The notes beneath the pieces were generated by a model that was not told the origin of the DNA, made no database searches, and saw only the letters and a list, made by a program, of their open reading frames with translations. 26,093 bases of DNA from a virus. The DNA lies in IMG/VR virus record IMGVR_UViG_3300044998_000627, positions 1 through 26,093 of that record, one strand, 5' to 3'. Below, piece after piece: positions 4,517-26,093 of the stretch. The stretch's first letter is position 1. Each line of letters opens with the position of its first letter. The translations under genes were made by a program, and so were the position numbers.

Positions 4517-4535
4517 CTGGTGCTCCTGAGTGAAG

Positions 4536-5912: not shown

Positions 5913-5951
5913 CGGTAGTTCCTCGGGAGCGAGCGGTGAGCGGAGTCAGGG

Positions 5952-6614
5952 TCAGGCAGCGATCGCGTTGCGCGCGTACGCGCGCCACGGAACGGTGAGG
6001 GTGCAGACGGCCCAGCCCCCGTCGAGGCGGCGGATCGCGCTGCTGGTGGGCGCCACGTCGCCCCGCACATAGGCAGCGCCGGCGGCGACGAGGAGGGCGA
6101 GGCCCGGCGCGTAACGAGCCTGCATGGCCGCGACCATGGCGCGGATCGCAAGCGAGCCGGTGCCTTGGAGACCGACGCAGCGGAGCACGTACAGGCCCGT
6201 GTCCTCGAGCAGGCCCCCATTGGCGCTTGCGGACCGGAGCTCGGACGTGCCGGGCACGAAGTCTTCTTCGAGGTACGGCCATCCCGGCTCCGGTCGGAAC
6301 TCCATGTTCTCCCACGCGCGACGTGACGGCAGCACCGCGTCGACGCGCCGGCCACTCGCGGCGCCCTGCGGCACGCGGGTGCCGGTCACGGTGAGCATCG
6401 TCGCGGTCACGGCGCTCACCACCGCCGGCTCCGCGGTCGTGAAGCCGAACGGCTGTATTTCCATCCCGACGCGAAACCCGTCGGTGAGAAAGGAGCCGCT
6501 TGTGCGCGAGAAGCCGGACGGCGTGGCCGCGATCGTTGCGGATCCGGTGGTGCAGACCACCACATCCAGCAGCCGCGTGCGCAGGGCGAGGTGCAGGTCC
6601 ACGTGGTTGATCAT
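5952..6614 (-). CDS. Tail terminator (gpU-like) protein
   Basis: A 220-residue protein between an HK97 gp10-like protein and the tail tube, the usual site of the tail terminator, which caps the tube and joins it to the head. It begins MINHVDLHLALRTRLL. Terminators typically open with such a short helix that addresses subunit number. The central motif WENMEFRPEPGWPYLEEDF matches the W...F.P..g.P...ED pattern of this group. C-terminal strands (GWAVCTLTVPWRAY) complete the fold. Its ATG overlaps the previous stop (ATGA at 6614-6611). Terminator function is inferred from order and the motif. Confidence 0.75.
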   Translation of the reverse strand: MINHVDLHLALRTRLLDVVVCTTGSATIAATPSGFSRTSGSFLTDGFRVGMEIQPFGFTTAEPAVVSAVTATMLTVTGTRVPQGAASGRRVDAVLPSRRAWENMEFRPEPGWPYLEEDFVPGTSELRSASANGGLLEDTGLYVLRCVGLQGTGSLAIRAMVAAMQARYAPGLALLVAAGAAYVRGDVAPTSSAIRRLDGGWAVCTLTVPWRAYARNAIAA

Positions 6615-6991
6615 GCGCCACCGCCCGACGCGAGGGCCGCGGCCTTTACGATCTGGGGCCAGCCGGCGCGCGTGAGCTTGGCGCTGTGAAAGCCGCCGAC
6701 GACCGATCGCAGGGAGAGCGTCACGCCGTCCGGTCGCACGCCGTCCTCGATGTACGGGGCGTAGACGAGCGGCGTCGTGATCTGCCAGTCGGTGAGACTG
6801 TTGAAGCGCGGGATGAAGGAGGCCCTAAGCGTCCCGGTGTCCACCGGCTGCCCAGGGGCCCCGGTGAGCGGCGATCCCTCGACGAGTGAACGCTGCACCT
6901 CGGTCGTGCACCGGACGAACGTCGCGCGCGTGACGCGTTCCGCCTTCACGCTGAACGACCGCAACTCGCGCCCGAAGCCGGCGGCGCTCAT
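6611..6991 (-). CDS. HK97 gp10-like head-tail/neck protein
   Basis: A 126-residue protein with the start chosen at the ATG at 6991, which overlaps the preceding stop as ATGA. The signature VDTGTLRASF near residue 50 and TPLVYAPYIEDGVRP near residue 75 match the DTGrLr.S and YA.yvE.G elements of the HK97 gp10 family, which acts at the head-tail joint. The gene also overlaps the next one by ATGA, placing it inside a tight block of connector genes. The open frame extends further upstream, but that part is a shadow of the next gene. Confidence 0.85.
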   Translation of the reverse strand: MSAAGFGRELRSFSVKAERVTRATFVRCTTEVQRSLVEGSPLTGAPGQPVDTGTLRASFIPRFNSLTDWQITTPLVYAPYIEDGVRPDGVTLSLRSVVGGFHSAKLTRAGWPQIVKAAALASGGGA

Positions 6992-7353
6992 CGCTGCGCC
7001 ACCACGCGCGCGAGGATCGCCACCCCGTCCGGGGCGAGCGGCTCGATGTCGCGCGCCGTGTAGGTGTGCCCGCCGAATCGCATCGTGCCACCCAGCGCGG
7101 GCAGCGCCCCGAACGTGGCTGCGACGAACAGGAAGGTCGGCGCCTCGGTCTCCACGAGTCCCAGCTCGCGGTACCGGGCGGGATTCCCCCTGGTGCGCAG
7201 CGCGTAGCCGGCGATCTCGGTGACCGTGGGCGCGCCCACGAGCCCGGTCGCCGCGTCGTACGCACTGGGCGCGGCCATCGTCCAGACGACGGGCGCGCCA
7301 GCGGAACGCACATCCGCGGCCGCCCCCGCGTGCTCCGCGGTGTAGACGCTCAT
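6988..7353 (-). CDS. Probable head-closure/head-tail joining protein
   Basis: A 121-residue protein flanked by ATGA overlaps on both sides. The sequence is beta-rich, and the C-terminal part (MRFGGHTYTARDIEPLAPDG, then VAILARVVAQR) resembles small head-closure proteins in which a strand pair ends in a Val-rich strand. Order alone, between a connector/adaptor and a gp10-like protein, predicts a stopper or head-closure role comparable to lambda gpFII or SPP1 gp16. I do not recognise a named family, so the role is inference. Confidence 0.65.
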   Translation of the reverse strand: MSVYTAEHAGAAADVRSAGAPVVWTMAAPSAYDAATGLVGAPTVTEIAGYALRTRGNPARYRELGLVETEAPTFLFVAATFGALPALGGTMRFGGHTYTARDIEPLAPDGVAILARVVAQR

Positions 7354-7868
7354 GTGCGCGCGAGCTCCACGCCCGCGGCACCGCCACCCGCGAGGAGCGG
7401 CTGAACCATGGCGAGCACCCGCGGGAAGCGAGCGATCCCGCGCGCCCGCACGGCGGGCGCCGCGTACTCGGTCTCAAGTACGTCGACCTTCTTCCGGACC
7501 ACGTTCGCGAGGGGATCCGGGCGCGCCGGATCGCCGCCGAGCGCGAGGTACTGCAGCGCCAGCTCGCACGTCGCGTCGACCACGCGCCGCGGGATCTCCG
7601 TCGCGCCGTAGAAGCGCCCTGTGGGATGGTCTGGGTCGCTGACCCACGCGCGGGGCCAGGCGAGTGCCTGCGTCGCGCTGGCGCGCAGGCCGCGCCAAGA
7701 GAGCGTCGACAAGTCGCGCGACGCTTCGACCAGCGCTGCGAACTGCGACGGGTCGGCGGTCCACACGGCGCCGCCGAGGCGACCGTCACAGTAGGCCGTC
7801 ATCGTGTCCTCGTCCGCGAACGTGTTCGCGGCCGGACTGGCCGCCTGCGCGACGAGGTCGACGGCCAC
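7350..7868 (-). CDS. Head-tail connector/adaptor, DnaT-like family
   Basis: A 172-residue protein. After a short N-terminus it reads WTADPSQFAALVEASRDLS, then GLRASATQALAWPRAWV, then IPRRVVDATCELALQYL. This order matches proteins annotated as 'DnaT-like ssDNA binding' in phage head operons (w....q..aL..as..ld....GlR....q.L.wPR....iP..v..A..ELAl). Despite that name, in this position the family is expected to be the adaptor that sits under the portal, like HK97 gp6. It is coupled to the next gene by ATGA. No motif suggests enzymatic activity. Confidence 0.75.
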   Translation of the reverse strand: MAVDLVAQAASPAANTFADEDTMTAYCDGRLGGAVWTADPSQFAALVEASRDLSTLSWRGLRASATQALAWPRAWVSDPDHPTGRFYGATEIPRRVVDATCELALQYLALGGDPARPDPLANVVRKKVDVLETEYAAPAVRARGIARFPRVLAMVQPLLAGGGAAGVELART

Positions 7869-7871
7869 GGA

Positions 7872-8318
7872 TCAGGTCTCGGCTCCGGGCGAACCCGGCG
7901 TGTCCGCATCGCTCGGCGCGATCGCGACGGTCTGGCCGCTTGCCGCGACTTGCGCGGCATGGGCCTCTCGGACCGACTGGAGCAACTGCTCCTTGTTCAC
8001 GCTGCCGGCGTCGAGCACCAGACCAAGCTCGACGGACCCGTAGAGCGCGATCTCGGCCTTGGTGCGCTGTGCCAGATCGTCAGGGAGCGGCGGCACGACG
8101 AGGCCGACGTTCACGATGCTCGCGCCGGGCGCCGTGCCGACCGACGGATCGGACGACACGGACGCCAGCAGCGCGACAGGGGCATCGGCCGTGCGCCAGG
8201 CGCCGGTGGCCAGCATCTCGCGCGCATCGACGGGCCAGCGCGTGCACACCTCGCCAGTCTCCACGTGCGTGAGCGTGACCCTGCCGGACGCGTCCGGTAC
8301 GACCGCATGCCCCGCCAT
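7872..8318 (-). CDS. Small head-region protein with HeH/LEM-like C-terminus
   Basis: A 148-residue protein, start at the ATG at 8318 that overlaps the preceding stop (TGATG). The N-terminal third contains ETGEVCTRWPVDAREMLATG, resembling the 'VDarEmL..G' segment common in small phage proteins next to the capsid gene. Near residues 100-125 RTKAEIALYG...VNKEQLLQSV resembles a helix-extended-loop-helix (HeH/LEM) element. The C-terminal tail is Ala/Ser/Asp-rich. Its place between the cement protein and the connector suggests a structural or assembly role; the function is unknown. Confidence 0.7.
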   Translation of the reverse strand: MAGHAVVPDASGRVTLTHVETGEVCTRWPVDAREMLATGAWRTADAPVALLASVSSDPSVGTAPGASIVNVGLVVPPLPDDLAQRTKAEIALYGSVELGLVLDAGSVNKEQLLQSVREAHAAQVAASGQTVAIAPSDADTPGSPGAET

Positions 8319-8755
8319 CACGCCGACTTGACGACGTACGCCGAGTAGTTGATGCCGGTCGCGATCGAGCCCCCGATGCGCGTGAAGACGCGCAGGTAGC
8401 GATACCGCGTGCCGTTGACCTCGTTGCTGAAGCCGATCTCGCGCCGCCCGGCGGTCGAGTCGGCGGACTCGTTCGACTGCGTGGAATCCCCGAGCTTCAC
8501 CATGCCGGCGATGAAGATGCCGCTGGCGAACGTGGGCGAGTTCGACACCTGCACTTCGATCTCGTACTTCTCGTCGCCGGTGGCGACCTCGATCGCGGTC
8601 ACGTCGACGATCACGCGCGCATCGACGCGGGAGTCGCCGAGATCGACGACCTTCGCGCTGCCGCCCACCGTGGCGGCGGCCGACGAGGCGACGAGCCCCG
8701 CGTCCTTGAGCAGGTGCTCGTGATCGTACGTGGCGTCCTTCTGGTTGCGAGCCAT
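8318..8755 (-). CDS. Capsid cement/decoration protein, Bbp16-like
   Basis: A 145-residue protein starting MARNQKDATYDHEHLLKDAG. The ATG at 8755 is preceded by GAGAGGAGACCTGACC, a strong ribosome-binding site; the longer open frame before it overlaps the capsid gene and is a shadow. The features SAAATVGGSAKVVDLGD near the start, a Val/Glu-rich strand region, and a C-terminal TRIGGSIATGINYSAYVV resemble Bbp16-type capsid cement proteins (T...s.n.iDlG ... ttGi...A). Its position directly after the major capsid gene fits an outer-surface stabiliser. Family call moderate, position strong. Confidence 0.72.
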   Translation of the reverse strand: MARNQKDATYDHEHLLKDAGLVASSAAATVGGSAKVVDLGDSRVDARVIVDVTAIEVATGDEKYEIEVQVSNSPTFASGIFIAGMVKLGDSTQSNESADSTAGRREIGFSNEVNGTRYRYLRVFTRIGGSIATGINYSAYVVKSA

Positions 8756-8769
8756 GGTCAGGTCTCCTC

Positions 8770-9708
8770 TCAGGCCGCGACGGGCGCGTTGGAAATGCCG
8801 CGCAGGCGGGTTGCCGCGCGGCCGTGCTCGATGCAGAGCCCGGCGTACCACTCGACGCGCGTGCGGCTGGCCGGCGTCGACTCCATCTCGCCCAGGTCGC
8901 GCACCTGCATGGGACCGGACTGAATGCCCGAAACGAGCCCGTCGCCCATGCCGACCACGTAGATCGAGGTGGCCGTCGCCGTGCCGCCGCCGGCGCCGAC
9001 CTCGTCGAACGCGATCGGCTCGGTGCCGCTGTTGTCCGAGTACGGCACGAGCAGGGGCAGGCCGGCGTAGAACGCGATCTGCCGACCGAAGGCATCGACC
9101 TCATAAGTGATGAACCCGCCGATGCCGGTGTTGCGGGCGGCGGCCGTGAGGCGGCGCCGCATGGCCTTTGACAGGATGATATGCGTCGGGTTCGTCGTCG
9201 CGTCGATGGCCTCGTCGAGCTTCGTGAGGCTCAGCGGGTCGCCACCGTTCGTCGAGCCGTTCTCGATGAGCTGCGCGCCGGTGATGCGCTTCTGCAGCCC
9301 ATCGAACTCGCGCGGGTTCGTCTCGCTGTCGCCCTTGATGATCGTGGTCGTCAGCGCGGCCGCGAGCGCCTTGACCTTCAGCTCCTCGTGCGCGGCGCGT
9401 ACGCCCTCACCCTGTGTCGCGATGAGGAACTGGTCGACGTCGAGATCGCCGCCACAGATGCGCAGGGACTCGGTCAGCGGGTTGATGATGCCCGCGCTCG
9501 AGGCGTACGCCTCGTTGACGCCGCGGAACGCGACGCCGGGCAGCTGCCCTTCGCGGTTGTAGGAGTAGGCGTTGCCCTGGATGGTCTTGAACGGCAGCAT
9601 CTGCAGGATGTCCGACGCCTGGGCGAACATCGCGATGACAGCGGCCCGCAGCGTCTCGCCGCGGTTCGCGGCCAGCTTCGCAGCTTCGACGAGCGTGAGT
9701 GCGCTCAT
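8770..9708 (-). CDS. Major capsid protein (HK97 fold)
   Basis: A 312-residue protein; the ATG at 9708 is preceded by GAGGA at a spacing of 6 bases. The N-terminus is helical (LTLVEAAKLAANRGETLRAA), then FAQASDILQMLPF and YSYNREGQLPGVAFRG give the strand pattern expected of the E-loop side of HK97-type coat proteins. The P-domain helix HEELKVKALAAALTT follows, then the A-domain with TTNPTHIILSKAMRRRL and FGRQIAFYAGLPLLVPYSD. The C-terminus GMESTPASRTRVEWYAGLC-like segment is typical of coat proteins. Scaffold upstream and cement downstream agree. No delta-domain of HK97 type is visible, so a separate scaffold is expected, and one is present. Confidence 0.92.
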   Translation of the reverse strand: MSALTLVEAAKLAANRGETLRAAVIAMFAQASDILQMLPFKTIQGNAYSYNREGQLPGVAFRGVNEAYASSAGIINPLTESLRICGGDLDVDQFLIATQGEGVRAAHEELKVKALAAALTTTIIKGDSETNPREFDGLQKRITGAQLIENGSTNGGDPLSLTKLDEAIDATTNPTHIILSKAMRRRLTAAARNTGIGGFITYEVDAFGRQIAFYAGLPLLVPYSDNSGTEPIAFDEVGAGGGTATATSIYVVGMGDGLVSGIQSGPMQVRDLGEMESTPASRTRVEWYAGLCIEHGRAATRLRGISNAPVAA

Positions 9709-9775
9709 AGGGGTCCTCGTCGGTGAGAGCGGTACCCGTCGGGACCCACTGGCGCGTCTGCGCGGCGGCCGACCG

Positions 9776-9878
9776 GGGATTCGGGGAACACGGTCCTGAC
9801 TCGCCGAATCCCTCGGCGCCTACCTGCCGGAGTCACTCCGGCCCCACAAGGCGCGCGCACCGAGACCGCGTGCGCGCG
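9776..9878 (-). promoter_or_regulatory. Three tandem hairpins between scaffold and capsid genes
   Basis: The 179-base gap 9709-9887 holds three perfect inverted repeats: 9852-9860 with 9870-9878 (CGCGCGCAC/GTGCGCGCG, 9 bp), 9826-9833 with 9835-9842 (GCCGGAGT/ACTCCGGC, 8 bp arms one base apart, so effectively 7 bp around a 3-base loop), and 9776-9784 with 9804-9812 (GGGATTCGG/CCGAATCCC, 9 bp, 19-base loop). The first begins ten bases after the scaffold stop. None is followed by a U-tract. They could protect capsid mRNA, partly terminate upstream transcripts, or mark an RNA-processing site that sets the scaffold-to-capsid ratio. Confidence 0.6.
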
Positions 9879-9887
9879 GTCCGTCGA

Positions 9888-10565
9888 TTACGCGGCCTTC
9901 CCCTGCGCCCGCACGGCCGACAGGGCGGCCGCGGGGTTCTTGATGACGTCGTCGGCGCTGAAGACACCCAACGGCTGCCCGCTTCCGGTGCGCGCGTCGG
10001 AGCCGGCGGCCTTGGTCCCTTCGTAGAACTCGGGCGTCTCCTTCTTCAGCGTCTCGCCGACGAACGTCTCGAGCTTGCTGCCGGGCTGCCCCTTCACGAT
10101 GGGCGCCTCGCCGTCATCGGTCAGGTCGAACCGGTCCCGGTTGAGCTTCCACCAGGACTCGACGCGATCGGCGCGGACGCCCTGCTTGAGGGCAATCGCC
10201 TTGACGCGCTGGTCGAGCTTGAGCGCGCGGTTCTCCTCGAGGGCCGTCTTGCCCTTGACGAGGTCCGGCTCAAGCTCCTTGAGCACGTCGGCGCGCACCT
10301 CCTCCCGGATCTTCGCGAGTTGCTCCGCCGACAGGCCGGCGTCCGCGGCCTTCTTCTCGGTCTGCAGTCGCTTGAGATCATCGGCGGCCTTCTTCGCGAG
10401 GCGCTCGGCGGCTTCGCGCTTCTCGCGTTCGCTCTGCAGCGCGGTGCTCAGGCCGGACGTGTCCGGGTCCTCGAGCAGCGCGAACTCGCCGTTCTTCAGC
10501 TCGAGCGCGTCACCCCGGTGTGCCTCCGGGATCTCGTCAATGGTCGCGTACTTCTTGATCGGCAT
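9888..10565 (-). CDS. Scaffold protein
   Basis: A 225-residue protein starting MPIKKYATIDEIPEAHRGD at the ATG at 10565. It is strongly charged and helical: a coiled coil from about residue 43 to 95 (LQSEREKREAAERLAKKAAD, then DLKRLQTEKKAADAG), further Lys/Glu-rich helix, and a basic C-terminus. This layout and its place immediately before the major capsid gene match GP20/scaffold-type proteins, which direct procapsid assembly and are later lost. No protease motif is visible, so it is not a fused protease-scaffold. A 179-base hairpin-rich gap separates it from the capsid gene, and a hairpin precedes it. The longer open frame upstream of 10565 is spurious. Confidence 0.85.
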   Translation of the reverse strand: MPIKKYATIDEIPEAHRGDALELKNGEFALLEDPDTSGLSTALQSEREKREAAERLAKKAADDLKRLQTEKKAADAGLSAEQLAKIREEVRADVLKELEPDLVKGKTALEENRALKLDQRVKAIALKQGVRADRVESWWKLNRDRFDLTDDGEAPIVKGQPGSKLETFVGETLKKETPEFYEGTKAAGSDARTGSGQPLGVFSADDVIKNPAAALSAVRAQGKAA

Positions 10566-10573
10566 AGGGGTCG

Positions 10574-10595
10574 GGGCAGGAGGGATGTCCTGCCC
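10574..10595 (-). promoter_or_regulatory. Hairpin in the scaffold gene leader
   Basis: A perfect 8-bp inverted repeat, GGGCAGGA/TCCTGCCC, with a 6-base loop, ends 8 bases before the scaffold ATG. No free ribosome-binding site is visible between the hairpin and the ATG. The only AGGA-like sequence is inside the stem, so the structure may hold scaffold translation down. Confidence 0.5.
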
Positions 10596-10653
10596 GTAGG
10601 GTAGGCATCGCATCGCACGCGCGAGTGCGCACCTGTGGCCGATCCGGCAACAC

Positions 10654-10854
10654 CTACCACACGTCGGTGGGCTCGTCTGATGGTGCGAAGCCGTTCGCCT
10701 GGATGTAGGCGATGGTGAGCGCGGTGGCCGTGCGCTCGTCGTGCCGGGCGCGGGTGAGGCCGTACCAGAAGGCCGAGTACACCGCCGCCGCGCGCATGGC
10801 CGCCGCGACGGTCGCGGCGACGTCCTCGCCGTGCGGGTCAATCGCCGGCGTCAT
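10654..10854 (-). CDS. Small virion-region protein, unknown
   Basis: A 66-residue protein, start taken at the ATG at 10854 (MTPAIDPHGEDVAATVAAAM). It is predicted to be mostly helical, with a central aromatic stretch, AVYSAFWYGLTRARHDERTA, and it ends EPTDVW. It overlaps the end of the preceding small gene by 17 bases in another frame. Small uncharacterised helical proteins are common between MuF-like and scaffold genes. The upstream continuation of the frame (to 11079) is a shadow of the neighbour. No function can be assigned. Confidence 0.6.
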   Translation of the reverse strand: MTPAIDPHGEDVAATVAAAMRAAAVYSAFWYGLTRARHDERTATALTIAYIQANGFAPSDEPTDVW

Positions 10855-11029
10855 GGGGCGGATCGCTGGGCGACGGATTGGGACCGTCGACGCGCCGGCG
10901 CCACGCGGCGCGGGCCTGCGCGTTGCGGGCGCGCAGGCGCTCGCGGAGTTCGAGGAAGTCGTCCTTGGGTGGCGGCGAGGGGGAATCGGGCACGGACTGG
11001 GCGCAGCACAGCATCTCTCTCGGCTCCAT
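10838..11029 (-). CDS. Small Arg-rich protein, unknown
   Basis: A 63-residue protein starting MEPREMLCCAQSVPD. Pro/Ser-rich in the first third, then a charged helix LELRERLRARNAQARAAWRR and a short acidic tail. It lies between the MuF-like gene and the 66-residue protein, overlapping the latter by 17 bases. A start at the internal ATG (MLCCAQS) is possible and would leave 58 residues. The helix looks like real coding sequence, but there is no strong ribosome-binding site. A 17-base hairpin-like sequence, also found before the small terminase gene, abuts its start codon. Confidence 0.5.
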   Translation of the reverse strand: MEPREMLCCAQSVPDSPSPPPKDDFLELRERLRARNAQARAAWRRRVDGPNPSPSDPPHDAGD

Positions 11030-11046
11030 GTTGGCGATGCTGCAAC
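11030..11046 (-). repeat. 17-base repeat, copy 2
   Basis: The plus strand reads GTTGGCGATGCTGCAAC, one base different from 15844-15860. The arms GTTG/CAAC can pair, but the inner pair is lost to a G-G mismatch. It abuts the ATG at 11029. Confidence 0.45.
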
Positions 11047-11098
11047 GTACGCACCGGTGGCGACGGACGGCACGTGCAAATTGCCGGGACGTGCGGAC

Positions 11099-12070
11099 TC
11101 AGCCGTTGCGCGACTCGAACACGACGGCGAGGCATCGGCAGTTGTACTCGCTCTCGCCCGGCGTCATCTGCGGCCCGATGCCGGGCACGTTGAACGGCTC
11201 GTCGAACCGCACCACAACACCGTTCATCGCCTGATGCGCCGGCCGCTCGCGCCCGTCAAGCGTGGTCACCCACCGCCGCCGCAGACGATCGCGGTCCACC
11301 ACGCCGAGTCGCACCGCGTCCTCCCACGCGAGCCGCTGCCCGGCCTTCAGGCTGTCGAGCGCAGTGGTGCGCGCGGCCGTCTCCGCGTTGAGCGCGATCC
11401 GTCGCTGCGTGTATCGCTCGACCATCTGGTCGATCTGCGCCGGGGTCAGGTCCCCGCGGCGGATTCGCGCGTCAAAACGCCGGTCGCGCCGCGCGTAGGT
11501 CAGCGCTTTGGAGGCATCGCCCGTCTCAAGGGCGGTGCGGAAGTTCTGCACCTCGCGGCGCTGTGAGGGCCCAAGCCCGACGACTCCGCGGACGCGCCTG
11601 GCGACGGTGCGCGGGTTGACGCCGTCGCGGAGGCCGTCCTCGACGAACGCGCGCACCACCTCGCGCACGTCGTTGACCTGGCTCGCGACGTGCTTGATCT
11701 GCAGCGCACGAACGGCCTCGGTGACTCGGGGGTCGAGGACATTGAAGCCGACTGTGGCCGTCCCAGTGGACAAAACCCGCCGCGCGGCCGGTGGCAGCTG
11801 CCGCGTCGCAAGCGCCGCGCCTTCCGCCGCCGCCCGCTGCAGCTCCGCCTCGACCGCTCGGAACGCCCGTTCCAGTACGTCGGGCGTCAGGATCCGTCGC
11901 ACCATCGCGTCGGCGTTGCCGGTCGTGGCGAGCAGCCGCTCCACTTCGCTGGGCGCCAGCGCGGCGCGAACGAGTTCCCAAGCACGCAAGTACGCGCGCT
12001 GCAGGTCCGGGCGGACGCTCGCGGCCACGCGCCGGAAGGCCGCGTAGAGCCGACGCTCGCTCGGGGTCAC
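11099..12070 (-). CDS. MuF-like minor head protein (SPP1 gp7 family)
   Basis: A 323-residue protein. The C-terminal part carries the Phage_Mu_F signature: RRRWVTTLDGRERPAHQAMNG near residue 265, then VVRFDEPF, and a closing EYNCRCLAVVFESRNG (P..YNCRC). The N-terminal 220 residues are helical and Arg/Ala-rich. Proteins of this family sit in a few copies inside the head near the portal and may be ejected with DNA. The gene follows the portal gene, as in SPP1 and Mu. The start is a GTG at 12070, 27 bases after the portal stop. No toxin or ADP-ribosyltransferase extension is present, since it ends right after the CRC motif. Confidence 0.9.
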   Translation of the reverse strand: MTPSERRLYAAFRRVAASVRPDLQRAYLRAWELVRAALAPSEVERLLATTGNADAMVRRILTPDVLERAFRAVEAELQRAAAEGAALATRQLPPAARRVLSTGTATVGFNVLDPRVTEAVRALQIKHVASQVNDVREVVRAFVEDGLRDGVNPRTVARRVRGVVGLGPSQRREVQNFRTALETGDASKALTYARRDRRFDARIRRGDLTPAQIDQMVERYTQRRIALNAETAARTTALDSLKAGQRLAWEDAVRLGVVDRDRLRRRWVTTLDGRERPAHQAMNGVVVRFDEPFNVPGIGPQMTPGESEYNCRCLAVVFESRNG

Positions 12071-12097
12071 GAGGCGCCGCCGCTCATGCGGCCTGCC

Positions 12098-13639
12098 TCA
12101 TGCGTCGTCGTCGTCACGCGCGCCGTCGAGCGCGCGCCGCTCCGCCGCCGCATCGGCGATCGCCGCTTGGTTCGCCATGATCTCGGCTTCGAGGTCCTCG
12201 AGATCTTGGTCGGGCGCAATGAGCCCGCCCTGCTGCATCTGCGCCAGCAGCAGTCGCACCGGGAGCCCCGCGTCGACGATGGCCCGCACCCACGCCTGCA
12301 GGAGCGCCGGCGGCATGCCGGTCCGCTCGTAGTCCCGGGAGATCTCGAGGACCGGTGCCTCGGCTTGCGGGATGCCGCGGTACCACGCATCGAGCTCGGC
12401 CGCGAGGTTGAGGGCGTCCTCGATGCCCTGCGCGGCGGAGGCGAGCGTGGCGTTCTCCGCCGTCGCGTCGAGGCGCTTCGCCTCGGCGGTCTCCGCGGCG
12501 CGGGTGTCCGTCTGCAAGAAGCTGAGCCCCAGCTGCGCCATCTCCTCGAGCTTCTCGCGCTTGCCGCGCTCCAGTTGCGCCAGCCCGCCGCCCTTCGGGG
12601 ACTCCCACGTCACGGAGCTGCCCTGCGTGACGTGCACGCCGACGAGCGGCCCGATCTTGAGGCGCGGCGCCTGTCCGAGGTCGGTCTGTACGAGATCACC
12701 GGCAATGACGAGCTGCTCGAACCCGCACACCTGCCGATTGAAGGTCAGGTCCGACGCCAGCCGCCAGTGCCCGAGGTTCGCCTGGGCGACGCCGAGCAGC
12801 GGCACCGAGGCGGTGCACGGCGCGTCCGTGCGGCCGGCGTAGGCGATGGCCACGGGCAGCCGCGACGCGATCTCGCCGGCGCGGTTCCGGAAGACGCCGG
12901 CGCCGACCGCGCGATAGGACGCCGCGTCGGACACATCGTCGTCGGGTCGCCGCTCGAAGAGCTCCCATGTCGCGGCCCATCCGCCCTGCTCAACCGGCAG
13001 GAGCCGCAGCACGCGGTACCGATCGACGTGCGCGACGCCGAAGGGGCCGTCATCGATGGTCGCCGATTCGGCCAGCACCAGCAGGGTCAGGCGCTGCTCG
13101 TTCTCGACCGAGGCCACGCGCCAGTTGATCAGCGCGTCGCGGCCGAACATTGCCCAGCGCGGCCGCAACGCGAAACGCTGCTCAATCTCGGCAGTGACGC
13201 GCACCGGCTGCCCATTCGTGTCCACCGGCGGTCCGGGGTGGTCGACCAGCAGGAGCGCCAGCCCATCGCGCAAGGCGACGTCGGCGAAGCGCTTCGCGAA
13301 GACCGTCCACTTCGTGCCAGCGGCGTCGATGCTGTTCCAGTCGGCTTGCATCGCGGCCTGCGCGCCGTTCCACGTGATCGCGGGAGGCTTCGCGAACAGC
13401 ATGCCCACCCCAGCGCTGAGGGTGCGCTCGAGGCCCCCGAAGACGGGTTCGCAGGTGCGGCGCAGCGCGTAGGTCTCCGGGTGCTCGTCGCGCCACTTCC
13501 GGATGTACTCGGTCGCATGCGCGTGCATCACGCGCGTCCCGCCGAGCAGGCGGTGCACCAGCAGCAGGTCCTCGGCCACCTCGCGCGCCTCGCGGCGCAC
13601 GTAGCTGGGCAGGGTCGGGTTGGTCGTCAGAGCAGGCAT
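12098..13639 (-). CDS. Portal protein, DUF4055 family
   Basis: A 513-residue protein at the canonical portal position between terminase and MuF. It matches the DUF4055 portal type: N-terminal helix with YIRKWRDEHPETYALRR, GGLERTLSAGVGMLFAKPP (a typical 'tl.r.vG.vF..pp' segment), AMFGRDALINWRV, SRLPVAIAYAGRTDA with PLLGVAQANLGHWRLASD ('PPLldLA..N..hy...sd'), and a C-terminal LEEMAQLGLSFLQ helix, with AETAEAKRLDATAENATLAS ahead of the last domain. It forms the dodecameric ring for DNA entry and exit. The C-terminus is acidic (DGARDDDDA). Confidence 0.92.
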   Translation of the reverse strand: MPALTTNPTLPSYVRREAREVAEDLLLVHRLLGGTRVMHAHATEYIRKWRDEHPETYALRRTCEPVFGGLERTLSAGVGMLFAKPPAITWNGAQAAMQADWNSIDAAGTKWTVFAKRFADVALRDGLALLLVDHPGPPVDTNGQPVRVTAEIEQRFALRPRWAMFGRDALINWRVASVENEQRLTLLVLAESATIDDGPFGVAHVDRYRVLRLLPVEQGGWAATWELFERRPDDDVSDAASYRAVGAGVFRNRAGEIASRLPVAIAYAGRTDAPCTASVPLLGVAQANLGHWRLASDLTFNRQVCGFEQLVIAGDLVQTDLGQAPRLKIGPLVGVHVTQGSSVTWESPKGGGLAQLERGKREKLEEMAQLGLSFLQTDTRAAETAEAKRLDATAENATLASAAQGIEDALNLAAELDAWYRGIPQAEAPVLEISRDYERTGMPPALLQAWVRAIVDAGLPVRLLLAQMQQGGLIAPDQDLEDLEAEIMANQAAIADAAAERRALDGARDDDDA

Positions 13640-13685: not shown

Positions 13686-15206
13686 CTACGCGCTGAGCGA
13701 TGTCATGCTCACACCAGTGCGCGCCGCGAGCAAGCGGTATCGAGTCTCGTCGGCCGCGTGATCCTCGGCGCGCGTCTCGACGTCATCGGGCTTCTTCGGG
13801 TCGCGCGGCAGCACGGGCACAGTGCGAATCCAGTCGAGGCAGCTGTCGAACACGTACAGCCCCGGCTCCTCAAGCGGCGCCCTGCGCGCGGCGGTCAGCC
13901 GCTCGCGCAGCTTCTCCCAGCCGGCGCGACGGCTGCCGGGGCTCTTGTCGGCAGGCAGCCAGCGGACGCCACGGCGCGCCATGTCGGCCGCGATCGACAT
14001 CCCGTTCTCGACGTCGAAGATCGACGAGTCGGCCGCGCCAGGGCGCACACGCCACCCGTACGCCTGCAGCCACTGCGCTTCGCGGGTCCGGATACCGTCG
14101 GCAATGTCGACCGCGAGGAGCTTGAGTCCGACGTTCGGCTCGCCCGACTTCATGCCGTACCACTCGGCGATACGGAACAGCGAGCCGCGGGCGAAGTGCC
14201 GGCGCGTCCCATCAGCGAGGATTGCTGGCGAGCCGTCGCTCTCTGCCCACCAGCCGACGGAGAACGGCTTCGAGCTGCCCCAGTCGAAGGTCCGGTCGAT
14301 CGTCCAGGTCAGCGGGATGCGGAAGGGCGCGACGACGTGCACGGCGCGATCCCACACGTCGTCGAGCATGCCGCCCGAGACGATATCCCAGTCGCCGCTG
14401 CGCATCGCGCGCACCAGCGCCGGGTCGCCGAGGCCCTCGAGCCGATCCGCGTAGTCGGGATCGTTCGCCAGCATCGTCGGGTTATCCTCGAGCAACGACC
14501 GGATGAACTGGCGCCGCATGCCGCCGTCTTTTCGCGGCGCTTGGCGTATCTCTCCCTCTGGCGCGAAGTCCACGAAATCGGCCTTCACCCAGTTGTGTCC
14601 CACGCCCCCCGGGTTCGCGCTGCACAGGATCCGCGGGAACAGGCCGTGCCGCCACGACGGGACGGCGAGTCCACCGAGGCGCACGCGCCCGCGGAGGTAG
14701 CGATACATGCCGGCCGTCCACTGGGTGAGTTCGTCGATGAGCAGCACGTGGATCTCCGACCCTTGGTACCCGAGCACGTCCTTCTCGTGCTGCGCGTGGC
14801 ACAGGTGGATCACCGAGCCGTTCGCGAACCGGATCTGGTTCTTGTGCCAGACAATGCGGGCACGCCCGGCGTCCAAGTCGCGTGCCAGAAGCACCGGGAA
14901 CGCCGACGGGCCCTCCATGTGGTTCTTGAAGAGGTCCGGGAATTCGCGACGGAACAGGTAGACCTGCAGGCCTGGCACCCATCGGCACCACTGGATGGCC
15001 GCGAGGCGCATGAGGTGGCTCTTCCCGCCACCGGCGGCGCCGCCGTACAGCAGCTCGGTGGCCTCCGACTCGAACGCCTCCCGCTGCTTGGGGTGCAGGT
15101 CCGACGGCGTCTGGCGCTCGTGCAGCACGCGCACGATCTGCTCGAGCGCGGCCCGGCCACGCGCCGGATCTCGGGCTAGGTCGGCGAGCGCCTCAGCCGC
15201 GATCAT
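13686..15206 (-). CDS. terL: Terminase large subunit (TerL)
   Basis: A 506-residue packaging motor with ATPase and nuclease domains. The ATPase half has a Walker A-type loop GGAAGGGKS at residues 55-63, Walker B VLLIDE at 154-159, and a coupling motif SANPGG at 196-201. In the nuclease half, FDWGSSKPFS (Asp308) and GAADSSIFD (about 405-412) supply acidic residues expected of the RNase H-like active site. It powers DNA translocation through the portal and cuts concatemers. Its ATG overlaps the small subunit stop by ATGA (15206-15203). The ORF is intact and of usual length. The packaging type (cos or pac) cannot be told from the sequence. Confidence 0.95.
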   Translation of the reverse strand: MIAAEALADLARDPARGRAALEQIVRVLHERQTPSDLHPKQREAFESEATELLYGGAAGGGKSHLMRLAAIQWCRWVPGLQVYLFRREFPDLFKNHMEGPSAFPVLLARDLDAGRARIVWHKNQIRFANGSVIHLCHAQHEKDVLGYQGSEIHVLLIDELTQWTAGMYRYLRGRVRLGGLAVPSWRHGLFPRILCSANPGGVGHNWVKADFVDFAPEGEIRQAPRKDGGMRRQFIRSLLEDNPTMLANDPDYADRLEGLGDPALVRAMRSGDWDIVSGGMLDDVWDRAVHVVAPFRIPLTWTIDRTFDWGSSKPFSVGWWAESDGSPAILADGTRRHFARGSLFRIAEWYGMKSGEPNVGLKLLAVDIADGIRTREAQWLQAYGWRVRPGAADSSIFDVENGMSIAADMARRGVRWLPADKSPGSRRAGWEKLRERLTAARRAPLEEPGLYVFDSCLDWIRTVPVLPRDPKKPDDVETRAEDHAADETRYRLLAARTGVSMTSLSA

Positions 15207-16985: not shown

Positions 16986-18386
16986 CTAGGAGTGAAACCA
17001 AGCGTCGTCCCGGTCGGCGTTGGCTTCAGGGGAGAGCAGTAACCGCAACCCAGTACGCATCTTACGGCTATTCGTGGCTCGGACATTGAACCCGCGCTCG
17101 CCCATCCGGCGCCCGAACATCTGCGCCGTGATCACGTGCTCGCCGTTCTCCTTGGCCCACTTCTCGTAGGCCCTGTAGAGCTCTCCGGCGAGGACTTCGA
17201 ATGCCCCGACCTCGCACCGATCGGCCAAGAATGCGCCGATGGTGTCGCTTTCCTCGCGGTACGCGTTGGTGGCGGCGAGGACGCGCTCGGGGGCGCTGAG
17301 GCCCCGCTCGAGCCACTGGGTGCAGCCCGCCACGGCCCAGGCGAGGATGCCGGGCAGCTCCTGCTTCAGCTTTGCCGGGAGCTGGTCGTCTCGCTGGTCG
17401 GGCTTGATGGTCACCTCAAACGGGATGAGCCGGACGCGCCGCCAGATGGCGTAGTCGGTGCCGCGGATGACGGGCTTGTGGTTGGCAGCGAGCCAGAGCT
17501 TGAACTGGGGCCTGAACTCAAAATCTTCAGAGTACAGGTACCGCGCGGTCATGATGTCGCCGCCGGTGAGGGACTTGATGAGCCCCTCGTTGAGCCGCTT
17601 GTTCTCACCGACCTCGGAGCTCCGCACGAGCCGTGAGCCGGCCAGGCGGGCGACGTCGTTGCGTGGGCCGGCGTCGGTGCGCCGCTCGAGGAACGTGGTG
17701 AAGTCGGACTGCTGTCCGTACTCGCCGGCAAGCATGCCGAAGACGTCGAGCAGCGTGGACTTGCCGTTCGCGCCGGTGCCGTGGCACAGGTGGAGGACTT
17801 GCTCGCGGGTGTCGCCGGTCAGCGAATAGCCCACGGCGCGCTGGACGTACTCGATGAGGGTGGCGTCGCCGGCAAAAATGGTGTCGAGCGTCCGGAGCCA
17901 CGTTGGGCACTCGGCGGCCGGATCGAAGTCCACATCGACGAGCTTCGTGGACAAGTCGCCCCGCGCGTGCGGCCCCAGCGTGCCGGTCTGCAGGTTGAGC
18001 GTCCCGTTGCGCACCGTCAGGAGCATCGGCCGCTGGTCGAGCGCATCGTGCGGGATGGCGATGCCGTGCTCGGAGCGGGCGAGCCGGATCATGGCGTCGA
18101 TCCGGCCGACGGCTTCGGAGCGCACGGCGTGCTGGGCGAGTGCCTTGCGGTCATCGCCGGTGAGGGTGTCGGCCTCCTCGAACATGCGGCGCACGACGCC
18201 TTTCGCGCGCCGCTCGACCTCCCCGGTCTCGTCACGCGCCCAGCGCCGGCCGTCCCAGACCAGCCACACTTTCCACCGGGGGATCCATCGGAGATCGCGC
18301 CCATGCAGGGCCACCAGGCGCTCCCCGTTGCCGACGTCGGTGAACGGGTACGCGGCCATGGGCAGCGCGGGGATCAGGCTACTCAT
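16986..18386 (-). CDS. D5-type SF3 replicative helicase (no primase domain)
   Basis: A 466-residue protein of the phage/plasmid D5/P4-type helicase group. Residues about 20-170 match the D5_N region, with FDPAAECPTWLRTLDTIF just before the ATPase. The SF3 core follows: Walker A GTGANGKST at 203-211, acidic motif B around RLVRSSEVGEN at 252-262, sensor 1 WLAANHKP at 298-305, and an arginine finger IWRRVRLIPF at 314-323. A C-terminal winged-helix part includes EKWAKENGEHVITAQMFGRR. It would unwind DNA at the phage origin. P4 alpha-type proteins carry an N-terminal primase; here only about 20 residues precede D5_N, so priming must come from another protein or the host. Overlaps the upstream gene by ATGA. 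Confidence 0.92.
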   Translation of the reverse strand: MSSLIPALPMAAYPFTDVGNGERLVALHGRDLRWIPRWKVWLVWDGRRWARDETGEVERRAKGVVRRMFEEADTLTGDDRKALAQHAVRSEAVGRIDAMIRLARSEHGIAIPHDALDQRPMLLTVRNGTLNLQTGTLGPHARGDLSTKLVDVDFDPAAECPTWLRTLDTIFAGDATLIEYVQRAVGYSLTGDTREQVLHLCHGTGANGKSTLLDVFGMLAGEYGQQSDFTTFLERRTDAGPRNDVARLAGSRLVRSSEVGENKRLNEGLIKSLTGGDIMTARYLYSEDFEFRPQFKLWLAANHKPVIRGTDYAIWRRVRLIPFEVTIKPDQRDDQLPAKLKQELPGILAWAVAGCTQWLERGLSAPERVLAATNAYREESDTIGAFLADRCEVGAFEVLAGELYRAYEKWAKENGEHVITAQMFGRRMGERGFNVRATNSRKMRTGLRLLLSPEANADRDDAWFHS

Positions 18387-19796: not shown

Positions 19797-19888
19797 CGCG
19801 GCGCGCCTCCTGGTCGGACCGCGTCTCGCCGGGCATCGCTCGTCGGCAGCATGTGCTGTGTCGCCCCGAACGCCTCGGACGCGCTCAT
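19793..19888 (-). CDS. 31-residue peptide, unknown
   Basis: MSASEAFGATQHMLPTSDAR plus 11 residues. Although tiny, it begins with an ATG overlapping the previous stop (ATGA, 19888-19885) and its TGA overlaps the HNH start (GTGA). Such coupling at both ends is unlikely by chance. It could be a real peptide or simply a coupling leader that keeps ribosomes on the message. Confidence 0.55.
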   Translation of the reverse strand: MSASEAFGATQHMLPTSDARRDAVRPGGAPR

Positions 19889-20121
19889 GCCGCACCTCGC
19901 GCCGCGCGCCGCCACCACTTGCCGCGGTGGTCGGCGTACTGCACCGACTCGGCCACGCCGTCGCGCTTGAGGGCGCGCAGCGCGAACGCGATGTCGCCGC
20001 TTGAGACGGGCGAGAGTTCGTGCTGCCGAACGTGCGCGGCGATCACGCCCTCGGGCTGCCACTCATGCGTCAACGCTTCCATCGCGAGCATGGTAATCCT
20101 AGTCTGGCGCGGGTGCGTCAT
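19885..20121 (-). CDS. Small winged-helix protein (paralogue A)
   Basis: A 78-residue protein. After a short N-terminus, MEALTHEWQPEGVIAAHVRQ, then VSSGDIAFALRALKRDGVAE reads as helix, helix-turn-helix and start of a wing; it ends GKWWRRAARGAA. It is similar throughout to the 74-residue protein at 25270-25494: about 20 identical residues over some 65 positions without gaps, including EWQ, VS..I..AL..L and WRR. Both are likely DNA-binding and came from one duplication. ATGA overlaps at both ends. Confidence 0.7.
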   Translation of the reverse strand: MTHPRQTRITMLAMEALTHEWQPEGVIAAHVRQHELSPVSSGDIAFALRALKRDGVAESVQYADHRGKWWRRAARGAA

Positions 20122-22706: not shown

Positions 22707-22978
22707 GGCTGCCCCCCACGCGCCGAGGGCCACCGATACATCACGCGGGGGCGGCCGGCCACCGTCTGCACCTCGCGGACCATGAGGCCACGCGCGGCGG
22801 CGGACTCCAGTCGCTGCCGCCACCTCATGACGGTGCGGCCGTCGCGCGGTCCCGTCGCGTCGTGCGCCATCGCGACCTCGGCCGCGCTCCACGGCCGGGC
22901 GGTCTCAGCAAGCAGGGCGACGATCGCCGCATCGGCCTCGGCCTGGCGCCGCAGCGCGTTCGGCGTCGTGCGGCTCAT
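22703..22978 (-). CDS. Winged-helix protein
   Basis: A 91-residue protein, ATGA overlap with the upstream gene at 22978. Residues 15-85 read as winged helix: ADAAIVALLAETARPWSAAE, VMRWRQRLESAAARGLMVRE, then a wing, AGRPRVMYRW. Probably binds DNA. It is not clearly related to the two shorter winged-helix proteins of this window. Confidence 0.72.
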   Translation of the reverse strand: MSRTTPNALRRQAEADAAIVALLAETARPWSAAEVAMAHDATGPRDGRTVMRWRQRLESAAARGLMVREVQTVAGRPRVMYRWPSARGGQP

Positions 22979-23619
22979 GCTCCCCCCCCGATCCGCAGCT
23001 CGCGCGCGGCCGCTTCGACGAGGTGCCAGTGGCGATCGTGCCCGACCACGTCTGGGTGCGTGCGCGCGCGAGCCCTACGATATGCCTCGCGTAGCAGGTC
23101 GAGCTCCGCGTCCTGCGCGATGTTTATCTGGCTGTGGGCGGCGAGAATCTCGATCGCTGCCGAGCGCCCCATCGTCAGCGTCGTCGTCGACGCCGGCAAC
23201 GCCTTGAACCCGCGGAACTGCTGGGCATCCTGCACGGCGCCGTACCGCTCGACCGAGCGCAGCGCCTCGAGCGTGAGCAGGATCGCGCGCACGTTGTGAT
23301 GCCAGACCTGGTGCGAGTCCGCGGCGAACCGCAGCGCGCCCTGCGTCGGGTGCGTAAAGTACAGCACGACCCCTGGCGAACCCGGCCGGGCGGAGGAGCG
23401 GAGCGAACCGTCCTGACGAACGTCGCGCTCCGTCACGTCAACCTCGAGGAAGGCGTCGCGGCCACTGTGCCGCGCGATCTCCGCCTCCAGCTCCTGCAGC
23501 GTCGCAGCAGCACTGACCGTGAAGGTCCTGCTCGACCGCCGTCGCGAGGCTGGAGTCGCGGCGCCGGGCCACGCCGACAGCGGGCGCACGATAACGGGGA
23601 TGGAGGAGAGGCGGGTCAC
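22975..23619 (-). CDS. J-domain (DnaJ-like) protein
   Basis: A 214-residue protein with a GTG start at 23619 (GTGA overlap). The C-terminus has the centre of a J domain: DLLREAYRRARARTHPDVVG with His-Pro-Asp at 188-190, then HWHLVEAAAREL, matching helices II and III of DnaJ and the HPD loop that activates Hsp70. The upstream module, GALRFAADSHQVWHHNVRAI then LTLEALRSVERYGAVQD and FRGFKALP, looks like a separate conserved fold of phage and plasmid J proteins. The N-terminal 30 residues are Arg/Ser-rich. It may recruit host DnaK for replication or assembly. Confidence 0.75.
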   Translation of the reverse strand: MTRLSSIPVIVRPLSAWPGAATPASRRRSSRTFTVSAAATLQELEAEIARHSGRDAFLEVDVTERDVRQDGSLRSSARPGSPGVVLYFTHPTQGALRFAADSHQVWHHNVRAILLTLEALRSVERYGAVQDAQQFRGFKALPASTTTLTMGRSAAIEILAAHSQINIAQDAELDLLREAYRRARARTHPDVVGHDRHWHLVEAAARELRIGGGA

Positions 23620-23705
23620 CGCACCACCTCGGTGAGCTGCACCTCGACGGCGCGAGCGGGCCCCATGCGCTCGTGGGCGACGTCGGCTGTGACGAGGACG
23701 CTCAT
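23616..23705 (-). CDS. 29-residue peptide, unknown
   Basis: MSVLVTADVAHERMGPARAV then 9 residues. Start and stop overlap the neighbouring genes by ATGA and GTGA, respectively. The sequence has an amphipathic strand-like pattern (VEVQLTEVV). It may be a real peptide or a coupling leader for the J-domain gene. Confidence 0.5.
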   Translation of the reverse strand: MSVLVTADVAHERMGPARAVEVQLTEVVR

Positions 23706-23830
23706 CGCCACGTCCTCGCCGGCCGCGCGAGCGCTGCAAGCGCGAACGTCACCAGGATCGCCAAGGGCAGCCGGGGACGTCGCGGGCACTCGGCGATGGA
23801 ATGCGGTCCGAGGCACCAGCCGCACACCAC
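23702..23830 (-). CDS. Small Cys-rich membrane peptide (uncertain start)
   Basis: About 42 residues from a GTG at 23830 (a second GTG follows at once). CGWCLGPHSIAECP could bind zinc with Cys and His, and LPLAILVTFALAALARPA is a membrane span. The C-terminal TGA overlaps the next ATG, which supports a real gene. No ribosome-binding site is evident. The part of the open frame above 23830, including the stretch opposite the tRNA sequence (GGTRTHDLRIKRT), is not coding. Confidence 0.4.
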   Translation of the reverse strand: MVCGWCLGPHSIAECPRRPRLPLAILVTFALAALARPARTWR

Positions 23831-23963: not shown

Positions 23964-24005
23964 CTTTTAATCCGTAGGTCGTGGGTTCGAGTCCCACCCG
24001 GGTCA
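23964..24005 (+). other. attP: attP core: 3' half of a tRNA-Lys(UUU) gene
   Basis: These 42 bases read as the 3' part of a tRNA: anticodon loop CTTTTAA (anticodon TTT, 23964-23970), 3' anticodon stem TCCGT, variable loop AGGTC, T-arm GTGGG-TTCGAGT-CCCAC, acceptor strand CCGGGTC and discriminator A. Upstream bases do not complete the anticodon stem (GGTC instead of the needed CGGA) and no D-arm or 5' acceptor strand exists, so it is not a tRNA gene. It lies 21 bases from the integrase stop. Integration would restore a host tRNA-Lys with the integrase convergent to it. Confidence 0.85.
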
Positions 24006-24026
24006 TGGACATGGAATGGATACACC

Positions 24027-25085
24027 TTATCCCTCACTGGTCAGGGTCTTGGCGAGCCCGTCGGCCACCGCCGACTTGCCCACCTGCTTCGTGTAGCGGC
24101 GCGTCGTCGCCGCATTCGTGTGCCGCAGGCTGACCTGCACCAGCGCCTCGGGCACGCCGGCCTCGACGGCCCATTGCCCGTGGCAGTGCCGCAGGTCGTG
24201 CAGCCGGATCAGCGGCGAAAGCGCCGCGGCCTTGCACGCCGCCTTGAAGTGCAGCCGCAGCCACTTGTACTGCACCGGCGCGGGCACGCCGGCCTCCACC
24301 CAGTGCCACATGCTCGGGGCGACGCGGACCTGCGCCCGGCTCCCGCGCGTCTTGGTGCCCGGCACCTTCACGGCATGCAGCGAGGGCACGAGGTGTGTCA
24401 CATCGCACGCCAGGTACTCGCCAACCCGCATCCCCGTGAGCAGCAGGGTCCACAGCGCCGGCCGGATGTCCTGGCGCGCATGCTCAACGAGCCGCCGGAA
24501 CTCCGCCGGCGTCAGCTCCGGCACGCGCTCTTCTTCCGCCTCGGTGGGGATCGCCGCCATCACCTCGTGCCGGAACGCGTGCTGTTTGCTCCCCAAGTGC
24601 AGCGTCAGGAACCGTGAGAGCATGCGCCGCAGGTGCATCCAGTCGGAGGCCGACCCGTGCCAGTCCCGCCGCAACGCTGCCCAGTCGATCCGCGCGAGAT
24701 CCCGCACCCGCGCTGCCGCGGCCTTCGGGTAGACCCGCTCCAGCTTCTCGAGCGTGACCTCGTACCGCCGCCGCGTGGCCTCGACCCGGCCCATGCGAGG
24801 CAGCGTGTCACGCACCGCCTGAAGCAGCGGTGCGGAGGTCGCCACCTGGGCCGCCAGCCCCGCGCCGGCGAGGCCGTGCTCGCGCGCGTGAGCGTCGAGC
24901 AGCTCGATCGACAGCCGCCCGGCCGCGAGCAACCGCAGCGTCTCGACCTGCGCATCGGCCACCAGCGCGTCCACGATCCCTTCCCGTCGCGCGAACACGC
25001 GGCGGTTCAGAGTGTGCGCATTGATCTGGACGAGGCCGAGGCCGAGCCGGTGCAGCTGGCGACGGATGCGGAGATTGCGCGGCAT
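24027..25085 (-). CDS. int: Tyrosine integrase
   Basis: A 352-residue site-specific recombinase, start at the ATG at 25085 (TAATG with the excisionase-like gene). The N-terminal half (core-binding part, residues about 85-180) is helical, including DWMHLRRMLSRFLTLHL. The catalytic set is complete: Arg220 (LTGMRVGEY), Lys245 (PGTKTRGS), His296/Arg299 (LHDLRH), His322 (LRHTNAATT) and nucleophile Tyr331 (RRYTK). It integrates and, with an excisionase, excises the phage at attP, which lies directly after its stop. It is codirectional with all the other genes, so its expression may be tied to the same operon. Confidence 0.95.
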   Translation of the reverse strand: MPRNLRIRRQLHRLGLGLVQINAHTLNRRVFARREGIVDALVADAQVETLRLLAAGRLSIELLDAHAREHGLAGAGLAAQVATSAPLLQAVRDTLPRMGRVEATRRRYEVTLEKLERVYPKAAAARVRDLARIDWAALRRDWHGSASDWMHLRRMLSRFLTLHLGSKQHAFRHEVMAAIPTEAEEERVPELTPAEFRRLVEHARQDIRPALWTLLLTGMRVGEYLACDVTHLVPSLHAVKVPGTKTRGSRAQVRVAPSMWHWVEAGVPAPVQYKWLRLHFKAACKAAALSPLIRLHDLRHCHGQWAVEAGVPEALVQVSLRHTNAATTRRYTKQVGKSAVADGLAKTLTSEG

Positions 25086-25270
25086 TACGCGGCCTTCCCC
25101 CGCCGGGACTCGATCCACTGCTCCACATCCCGCGCGTAGTAGCGCACCACGCCGCGGGCAAGGTCCACCCGGGGCCGCACGTGCTTGAGCACCCAGCGCA
25201 CCGAGACCGCCCCGTCGAAGTAGTCGCGCACCACGTCTTCCGGCTTGATCAGCTTCCCGCGCTCCTGCAT
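25085..25270 (-). CDS. Excisionase-like small DNA-binding protein
   Basis: A 61-residue protein beginning MQERGKLIKPEDVVRDYFDG at the ATG at 25270 (TGATG overlap). VSVRWVLKHVRPRVDLARGV then VRYYARDVEQWIESRRGKAA resembles the MerR/excisionase helix-turn-helix (HTH_17): recognition helix followed by a wing and the closing 'd...wi..r'. Its TAA overlaps the integrase ATG, the usual xis-int layout. An AlpA-type regulator would look the same. The open frame to 25525 is a shadow. Confidence 0.75.
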   Translation of the reverse strand: MQERGKLIKPEDVVRDYFDGAVSVRWVLKHVRPRVDLARGVVRYYARDVEQWIESRRGKAA

Positions 25271-25494
25271 CACGCGACCCTCCGGGCGTTGATTCGTCGC
25301 CAGTGACTGCGGCTGTAGCCTGGAAAGCGCTTGGCCTCGGCCCGGCGGGTCACGCCGAGCCTGTCCAGAGCGTGCCGGATCTCCTGCTCCGAGACCGACC
25401 GCCGCGCGTGCGTGTGCACGTAGCGCACGAGGACGTCCTCTTCCTGCCACTCGGTCGACAGCGCATCGACGAGCAGCTGTTCCGCCTCGCTCAT
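25270..25494 (-). CDS. Small winged-helix protein (paralogue B)
   Basis: A 74-residue protein, MSEAEQLLVDALSTEWQEED then HARRSVSEQEIRHALDRLGV and a wing ending SHWRRINARRVA. It is related to the 78-residue protein at 19885-20121 over its whole length. It overlaps the ATPase gene by ATGA and the excisionase-like gene by TGATG, so it is co-translated with the integration genes. It could control them or the early operon. Confidence 0.7.
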   Translation of the reverse strand: MSEAEQLLVDALSTEWQEEDVLVRYVHTHARRSVSEQEIRHALDRLGVTRRAEAKRFPGYSRSHWRRINARRVA

Positions 25495-26093
25495 GCCGCC
25501 ACCGCCAGCGGTGGGAGGTCGGCATCCATCGCGCCCGCGCGCACGTCGCGCACCACCCGACTCACGCCGGCGTGCACGTTGAGCTCGACGCGGATGAGGT
25601 GATCGAGCGCGTCGCGCACGGAGGCGTCGTGCGTGATGATCATGATCTGCACGAACCGGTCACTGAGGCGGCGCAGCATCGCGAGCACGTTCGCGCGGCG
25701 CTGCTCGTCGAGCGCGGCGGTCACCTCGTCGAGGATGAGCAGCGCGAAGGGGGCGCCCGACCGCTCCGCAATCATCTGCGAGATGGCGAGCCGCAGGACG
25801 AGGTTACAGAGATCCTCCTCGCCGCCGGAGATGACGGGCTTCGGGAGCCCGTCCTCCACGAGCGTGAGCTGGTAGTCCTCGCCGAACTCGGCGTGCGTGT
25901 AGCGGCCATCGGTGAGCACCTCGAGCAGCCCGCTCGCCAGGTCGGCGAGTTCGGGACGGAGCGCGGCGTTCAGGTCCGCCCGGAGCTCTCCTATGGCGCG
26001 ATCCAGCTCCTCAAGCACGAGGCGCTCGCGATCGACGGCCACCAGCCGCTCCCGCGCTTGGGCGGTCTCGTCGATGCGGCGGCGCGCGGCGGC
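25491..26093 (-). CDS. SMC/Rad50/SbcC-like ATPase, C-terminal part (cut by window edge)
   Basis: The frame is open through the right edge; 200 residues are visible. Coiled-coil sequence at the edge (RRRIDETAQARERL) leads into a globular C-terminal ABC half: the signature PVISGGEEDLCNLVLRLAIS, Walker B PFALLILDEVTAALDEQRRA and the switch histidine in MIITHDASVRDAL. This order is that of Rad50/SbcC-type ATPases, whose N-terminal Walker A half would lie beyond the window. Such proteins act in DNA end processing or repair, often with an Mre11/SbcD nuclease. A GTG at 26042 is not the likely start, because the frame and coiled coil continue upstream. Confidence 0.88.
   Translation of the reverse strand, partial: AAARRRIDETAQARERLVAVDRERLVLEELDRAIGELRADLNAALRPELADLASGLLEVLTDGRYTHAEFGEDYQLTLVEDGLPKPVISGGEEDLCNLVLRLAISQMIAERSGAPFALLILDEVTAALDEQRRANVLAMLRRLSDRFVQIMIITHDASVRDALDHLIRVELNVHAGVSRVVRDVRAGAMDADLPPLAVAA

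Follow-up and report, generated by a model that had tools for sequence, protein, structure and literature searches.

The sequence under analysis is a 26,093-base IMG/VR virus record, referred to throughout as the window, which is classed as linear and in which no end repeats were found. Judged from a sibling phage (IMGVR_UViG_3300045922_000600, here G397; 49.9 kb) and from a prophage in genome G270, it represents about half of a genome of roughly 50 kb. Near its right end, a tyrosine recombinase gene (int) is followed, 21 nt beyond its 3' end, by 42 nt that reproduce the 3' half of a tRNA-Lys(UUU) gene (Table 1). To the left of this core lie a phrog_9210 gene, small genes and an HNH endonuclease gene, and then the primase, terminase, portal, head, tail and tape measure genes, the last cut by the window start. 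PHROG and Pfam annotation found phage genes to the left and to the right, and recognised no host gene in the window, in line with the first-pass annotation, to which the genes flanking the site looked viral.

Table 1. Features of the window, with positions, strand and the evidence for each assignment.
Feature	Position	Strand	Evidence
Structural operon (portal, head morphogenesis, scaffold, major head protein, adaptors, tail, tape measure)	2..13639	-	PHROGs matches
Terminase large subunit	13686..15206	-	phrog_979; 84% to sibling G397
Primase/helicase	16986..18386	-	phrog_6088 1e-132; 94% to sibling G397
Left-arm paralogue of 25270-25494	19885..20121	-	Smith-Waterman against shuffles
phrog_9210 phage protein, other side of attP	22975..23739	-	2.9e-35; 76% to sibling G397
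attP core, tRNA-Lys(UUU) 3' half	23964..24005	+	all 42 bases shared with intact tRNA-Lys(TTT) genes in two Gemmatimonas MAGs
CTTTTAA of the anticodon loop, where strand exchange is proposed (overlap region)	23964..23970	+	shared-segment border here or at most 3 nt off in 7 tRNA/fragment pairs
int, tyrosine recombinase	24027..25118	-	PF00589 2e-12; phrog_1 9.7e-20
Small xis-like gene overlapping int	25085..25270	-	neighbour of int also in G396 (54%) and G270 (58%)
Small protein, winged-helix-like by eye	25270..25494	-	paralogue of 19885-20121
SbcC/SMC-like ATPase, C-terminal part, cut by window end	25491..26093	-	PF02463 8.9e-15; phrog_77; 86% to sibling G397

The int product carries a tyrosine recombinase catalytic domain (PF00589, 47.7 bits against a cutoff of 27.1), and residues R231, K256, H307, R310, H333 and Y342, which we take to be the catalytic R, K, H-x-x-R, H and Y, are invariant across six aligned sequences. 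The small gene that overlaps int gave no match in Pfam and PHROG profile searches; from its position, it is probably an excisionase or recombination directionality factor. The next gene and its left-arm counterpart, both on the minus strand, reached a Smith-Waterman score of 86, against 26 +/- 5 for shuffled sequences, with none of 500 shuffles as high. BLASTP reported no match for this pair, nor for the pair 22703/25270, which also scored at shuffle level in the Smith-Waterman comparison. Concerning the winged-helix paralogue pair that had been said to bridge the site, the paralogy therefore stands, while the winged-helix part is a judgement by eye: family models matched the small paralogues only in a weak hit to phrog_1366, of unknown function.

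The core itself has the first anticodon-loop base as its left end and the discriminator base as its right end. ARAGORN found no tRNA gene in the whole window, k-mers drawn from the core (12 to 20 bases long) occurred at no second place in it, and the 5' half of the tRNA is absent at the core. These results agree with the first-pass description of a 42-base 3' half that starts in the anticodon loop and lacks its 5' half; a full tRNA at this point, which the same annotation had named as refuting its reading, was not found by ARAGORN in the window. Of the span that had been given for the site (23964-24085), the core accounts for the part up to 24005, and the remainder (24006-24085) takes in the intervening gap and the 3'-terminal part of int. 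An attL reading was ruled out because the 5' half is missing from the window.

The exact 42-mer was found in 2 of 84,980 genomes, both of them Gemmatimonas sp. MAGs, and in both it sits within a complete tRNA-Lys(TTT) gene; assuming uniform composition, the chance expectation in 257 Gb is about 3e-14. Identity with the two genomic tRNA genes extends over 42 and 43 bases, with no extra base leftward of the anticodon loop. This match is observed directly, and identity to the 3' part of a host tRNA from the anticodon loop onward is what defines the anticodon-loop class of tDNA sites. Among 395 Gemmatimonadota genomes, the 42-mer occurs exactly in 2, with one mismatch in 7 and within three mismatches in 122, and it was found exactly in no viral contig besides the window. 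No int relative was matched in the two genomes with the exact 42-mer, as expected for empty sites, and no lysogen of the window phage itself was found. The occurrence of the exact 42-mer in Gemmatimonas MAGs only, together with the related prophages of that phylum described below, points to a Gemmatimonas-like member of the Gemmatimonadota as the probable host, at a resolution above that of species. The genome search that had been proposed thus gave a clean host prediction, and tRNA-Lys(UUU) as the target gene is supported both by the exact match inside intact tRNA-Lys(TTT) genes and by the related prophages.

Hosts of metagenomic phages have been assigned before from exact attP-tRNA matches of 39-46 bp, and the report in question describes such matches alone as giving a broad taxonomic assignment, at the level of phylum or class (PMC3861242). 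The logic and the length are similar here, with the difference that the host group is the Gemmatimonadota and that integrated prophages in the phylum back the assignment. The same backing answers the warning, given in another report, that very short exact matches near the length of integration sites carry little signal (PMC5831537). A literature search for Gemmatimonas and prophage returned no paper titled for a phage of that group, and one for Gemmatimonadota, phage and tRNA-Lys returned no paper. The tRNA match gives a testable host to a phage that is known only from a metagenome. Genetic tools for Gemmatimonas-like bacteria are few, and int with attP, directed at tRNA-Lys as attB, is a candidate tool for integration there. 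As a separate observation, the tRNA-Lys core occurs in several copies per contig, spaced 1.5-97 kb, in G381:C168, G198:C102, G018:C27, G012:C16 and G167:C1 (in the last at 1740931, 1749897 and 1847244), which makes tRNA-Lys(UUU) look like a hotspot for integration in Gemmatimonadota.

The int protein and its alignment were also used to search viral records, which yielded four other records with relatives; in all four, a tRNA-Lys 3' half beginning CTTTTAATCC lies just after int, and ARAGORN found no complete tRNA-Lys at these loci. Among 50,697 phage records no close relative was found: none covers 80% of the query, and the best 20 matches cover at most 45% of it, all at less than 60% identity. 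Matches at E 1e-3 or better were obtained in 65 of the 395 Gemmatimonadota genomes, most of them weak. Across 20 loci (L005-L024; the weak matches L025-L034 are excluded from this count), the 3' end of a tRNA faces the 3' end of the integrase gene in 16 (Lys 4, Met 8, Leu 3, Phe 1), the assignments at L010, L020 and L024 being weaker because the tRNA lies 479-1042 nt off. Three of the remaining loci have no tRNA, and in one, the distant relative L007 (G168:C23 231560-231775), two tRNA-Lys(TTT) genes in a row have their 5' ends toward the integrase, an orientation opposite to that in the rest of the family. In an integrase tree of 23 rows, the window groups with L004 and L005 (100/92) and then with L006 (98/97), all of them beside tRNA-Lys. 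The Lys target requires four label changes on this tree, and its deeper branches lack resolution; a single origin of Lys targeting is therefore not supported.

The border of the shared segment varies little in this integrase family. In seven tRNA/fragment pairs, involving tRNA-Lys, -Met and -Leu, it begins at or at most 3 nt from the anticodon loop. Four pairs start exactly at the first loop base, namely Lys in G270, Lys in G157, Leu-UAA in G216 and Leu-CAA in G010; the start precedes the loop by one base for Lys in G021 and for Met in G227, and by three bases for Met in G106. The G227 copies are on separate contigs, as are those of G010, so that they are unproven as ends of one element, and a 24-nt tRNA-Met piece in G200, which the script did not confirm, was left out of the count.

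Three related prophages carry a full tRNA-Lys beside int and a copy of its 3' half at a distance, namely 50.5 kb in G270, 49.3 kb in G021 and 7.3 kb in G157; the regenerated tRNA and the displaced half are thus directly seen in relatives. The G270 prophage (about 50 kb, in a Gemmatimonadota genome) resembles the window phage in its related integrase (57%), tRNA-Lys target and crossover border, but its head genes, although related, are distant (portal 29%). The G021 prophage (about 49 kb, also in Gemmatimonadota) has the same target and border and a related integrase (47%), whereas its phage has unrelated head genes (phrog_15, 21, 53, 29). The element in G157 (G157:C6 376321-383670), which bears an integrase of the family on only 7.3 kb, is possibly a satellite or remnant. 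Moreover, the host flanks of the G270 and G021 prophages bracket a single tRNA-Lys in G182 and G332, as empty sites. At L116 the long flank matched on the downstream side only, the tRNA itself aside. At L115 (G081:C2 354000-363000) the tRNA-Lys is inverted relative to the flanks, with the flanking genes otherwise in the usual order, and because of this inversion the locus does not fit the simple empty-site picture.

A further relative, the 44-kb free contig G396, contains a single half copy and matches the G270 prophage collinearly over its whole length, with a permutation at attP: positions 96.8-99.3 kb of G270 correspond to 1-1578 of G396, and 145.7-147.2 kb to 1571-3123. This circular permutation is a direct observation; the junction at the half copy is the expected look of an attP, and the layout of the window is the same. 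In addition, the order of the structural genes in the window is kept in both G396 and G270.

Based on these results, we consider it highly likely that a temperate siphovirus-like phage has its attP here, in DNA that is not integrated (circular, concatemeric or packaged), and that the adjacent int recombines this site with tRNA-Lys(UUU) in a Gemmatimonas-like bacterium. Points that count against this reading are the failure to find a lysogen of the window phage, the reversed tRNA-Lys orientation at L007, the coverage of about half a genome by the window, and the MAG origin of both exact tRNA matches. The first-pass proposal of an attP beside its integrase is supported by the identical layout in relatives, the G270, G021 and G157 prophages, the permutation of G396 and the neighbours in G397, and the unintegrated state is the most likely one given the G396 permutation and the G397 flanks. 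As judged from its sequence, int would recombine attP with the host tRNA-Lys(UUU) gene, and strand exchange would take place inside the anticodon loop, where attP and attB are the same. The predicted cuts would lie about 7 bp apart in the loop, what is seen here being the border of the identity block alone. At the int end (attL), the 3' half brought by the phage would make the tRNA complete again, and the 3' half of the host would be displaced to the far end (attR). As the phage supplies the 3' half, the tRNA gene would stay whole in the lysogen, following the rule for tDNA integration given in the Islander report (PMC4383910), which counts 2083 islands whose sites are centred on the anticodon. 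The small gene overlapping int would probably direct excision. The 3' tRNA fragment, the anticodon-loop crossover, and the regenerated target and displaced fragment at the ends are shared with the class A tyrosine integrases described there (PMC4383910); the window integrase differs in having no close relative among the phage records searched. The mechanism is established textbook knowledge, but it points to a likely host of a virus that has been seen only in metagenomic data.

The window could instead be the internal junction of a tandem array, in which the same or very similar prophages lie head to tail in one tRNA-Lys gene and the DNA is integrated. The sequence of this junction would be that of attP itself, so that a virion or excised circle looks no different by sequence alone, and repeated core copies in one contig do exist (three in G167, two each in G381 and G198). 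However, only two core copies, one per end, are present near the elements in G270, G021 and G157, and the free contig G396 has one attP together with both arms; we regard an array as very improbable. For a metagenomic contig, one may also think of a chimeric assembly, or of a tRNA fragment that plays no part in integration, but the fragment stands at the same place in the window and in all four other viral records with this type of integrase, and the G+C content is even across the site, which makes this explanation extremely improbable. Finally, we rejected as extremely improbable that the window shows the attR end of a prophage, where the 3' half alone would likewise be present, beside an unrelated element or host island carrying its own integrase, since G397 holds SbcC and phrog_9210 in one contig around a different integrase, and int and the structural genes lie in one collinear genome in G270 and G396; the paralogue pair, moreover, spans the site. 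The same three lines of evidence place both arms of the attP in one phage genome.

Returning to an attP in unintegrated phage DNA, the comparison with the sibling G397 also bears on how such sites change. The two phages share one genome plan (major head protein 82%; other values in Table 1), but between the same flanking genes, there 3 kb apart, G397 carries a different tyrosine integrase and a 35-nt tRNA-Thr(CGT) 3' core, so both arms of the window belong to one phage genome. Nucleotide similarity ends at 25561 of the window and resumes at 23628, near where the homology of the phrog_9210 ORF with its relatives starts, with the exception of a 44-base piece at 23702-23745. The exchanged block covers 25560-23629 in the window and 6922-10015 in the sibling (L081), and int and attP were therefore exchanged as a unit. 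The 35 nt after the G397 integrase are identical to the 3' part of tRNA-Thr(CGT) in the Gemmatimonadota genomes G023 and G025; as this segment begins in the anticodon stem and not in the loop, the crossover in G397 is probably in the T arm.

It is reasonably likely that int and attP move as a cassette among gemmatimonad phages, that the integrase family holds its crossover at the first anticodon-loop bases while switching between tRNA-Lys, -Met, -Leu(UAA) and -Leu(CAA), and that near-identical phages swap whole cassettes, which changes the targeted tRNA gene as well as the position used inside it. If so, the family would offer a natural series for studying integrase recognition of the anticodon stem and loop. 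The 3' part of tRNA-Thr(CGT) is itself repeated in G067:C19 (72825, 103993 and 112850), and also in G339:C3 and G352:C21, which suggests a second integration hotspot. Lastly, ORFs antisense to the tRNA halves (window 23702-24037, minus strand; L004 11070-11546; L081 8635-8904) encode stock peptides such as GGTRTHDLRIKRT, GIEPTTYGLK and IGIEPMTARL; these seem to be artefacts of translating attP/tRNA sequences, and could serve as a quick text marker with which to spot hidden att sites.
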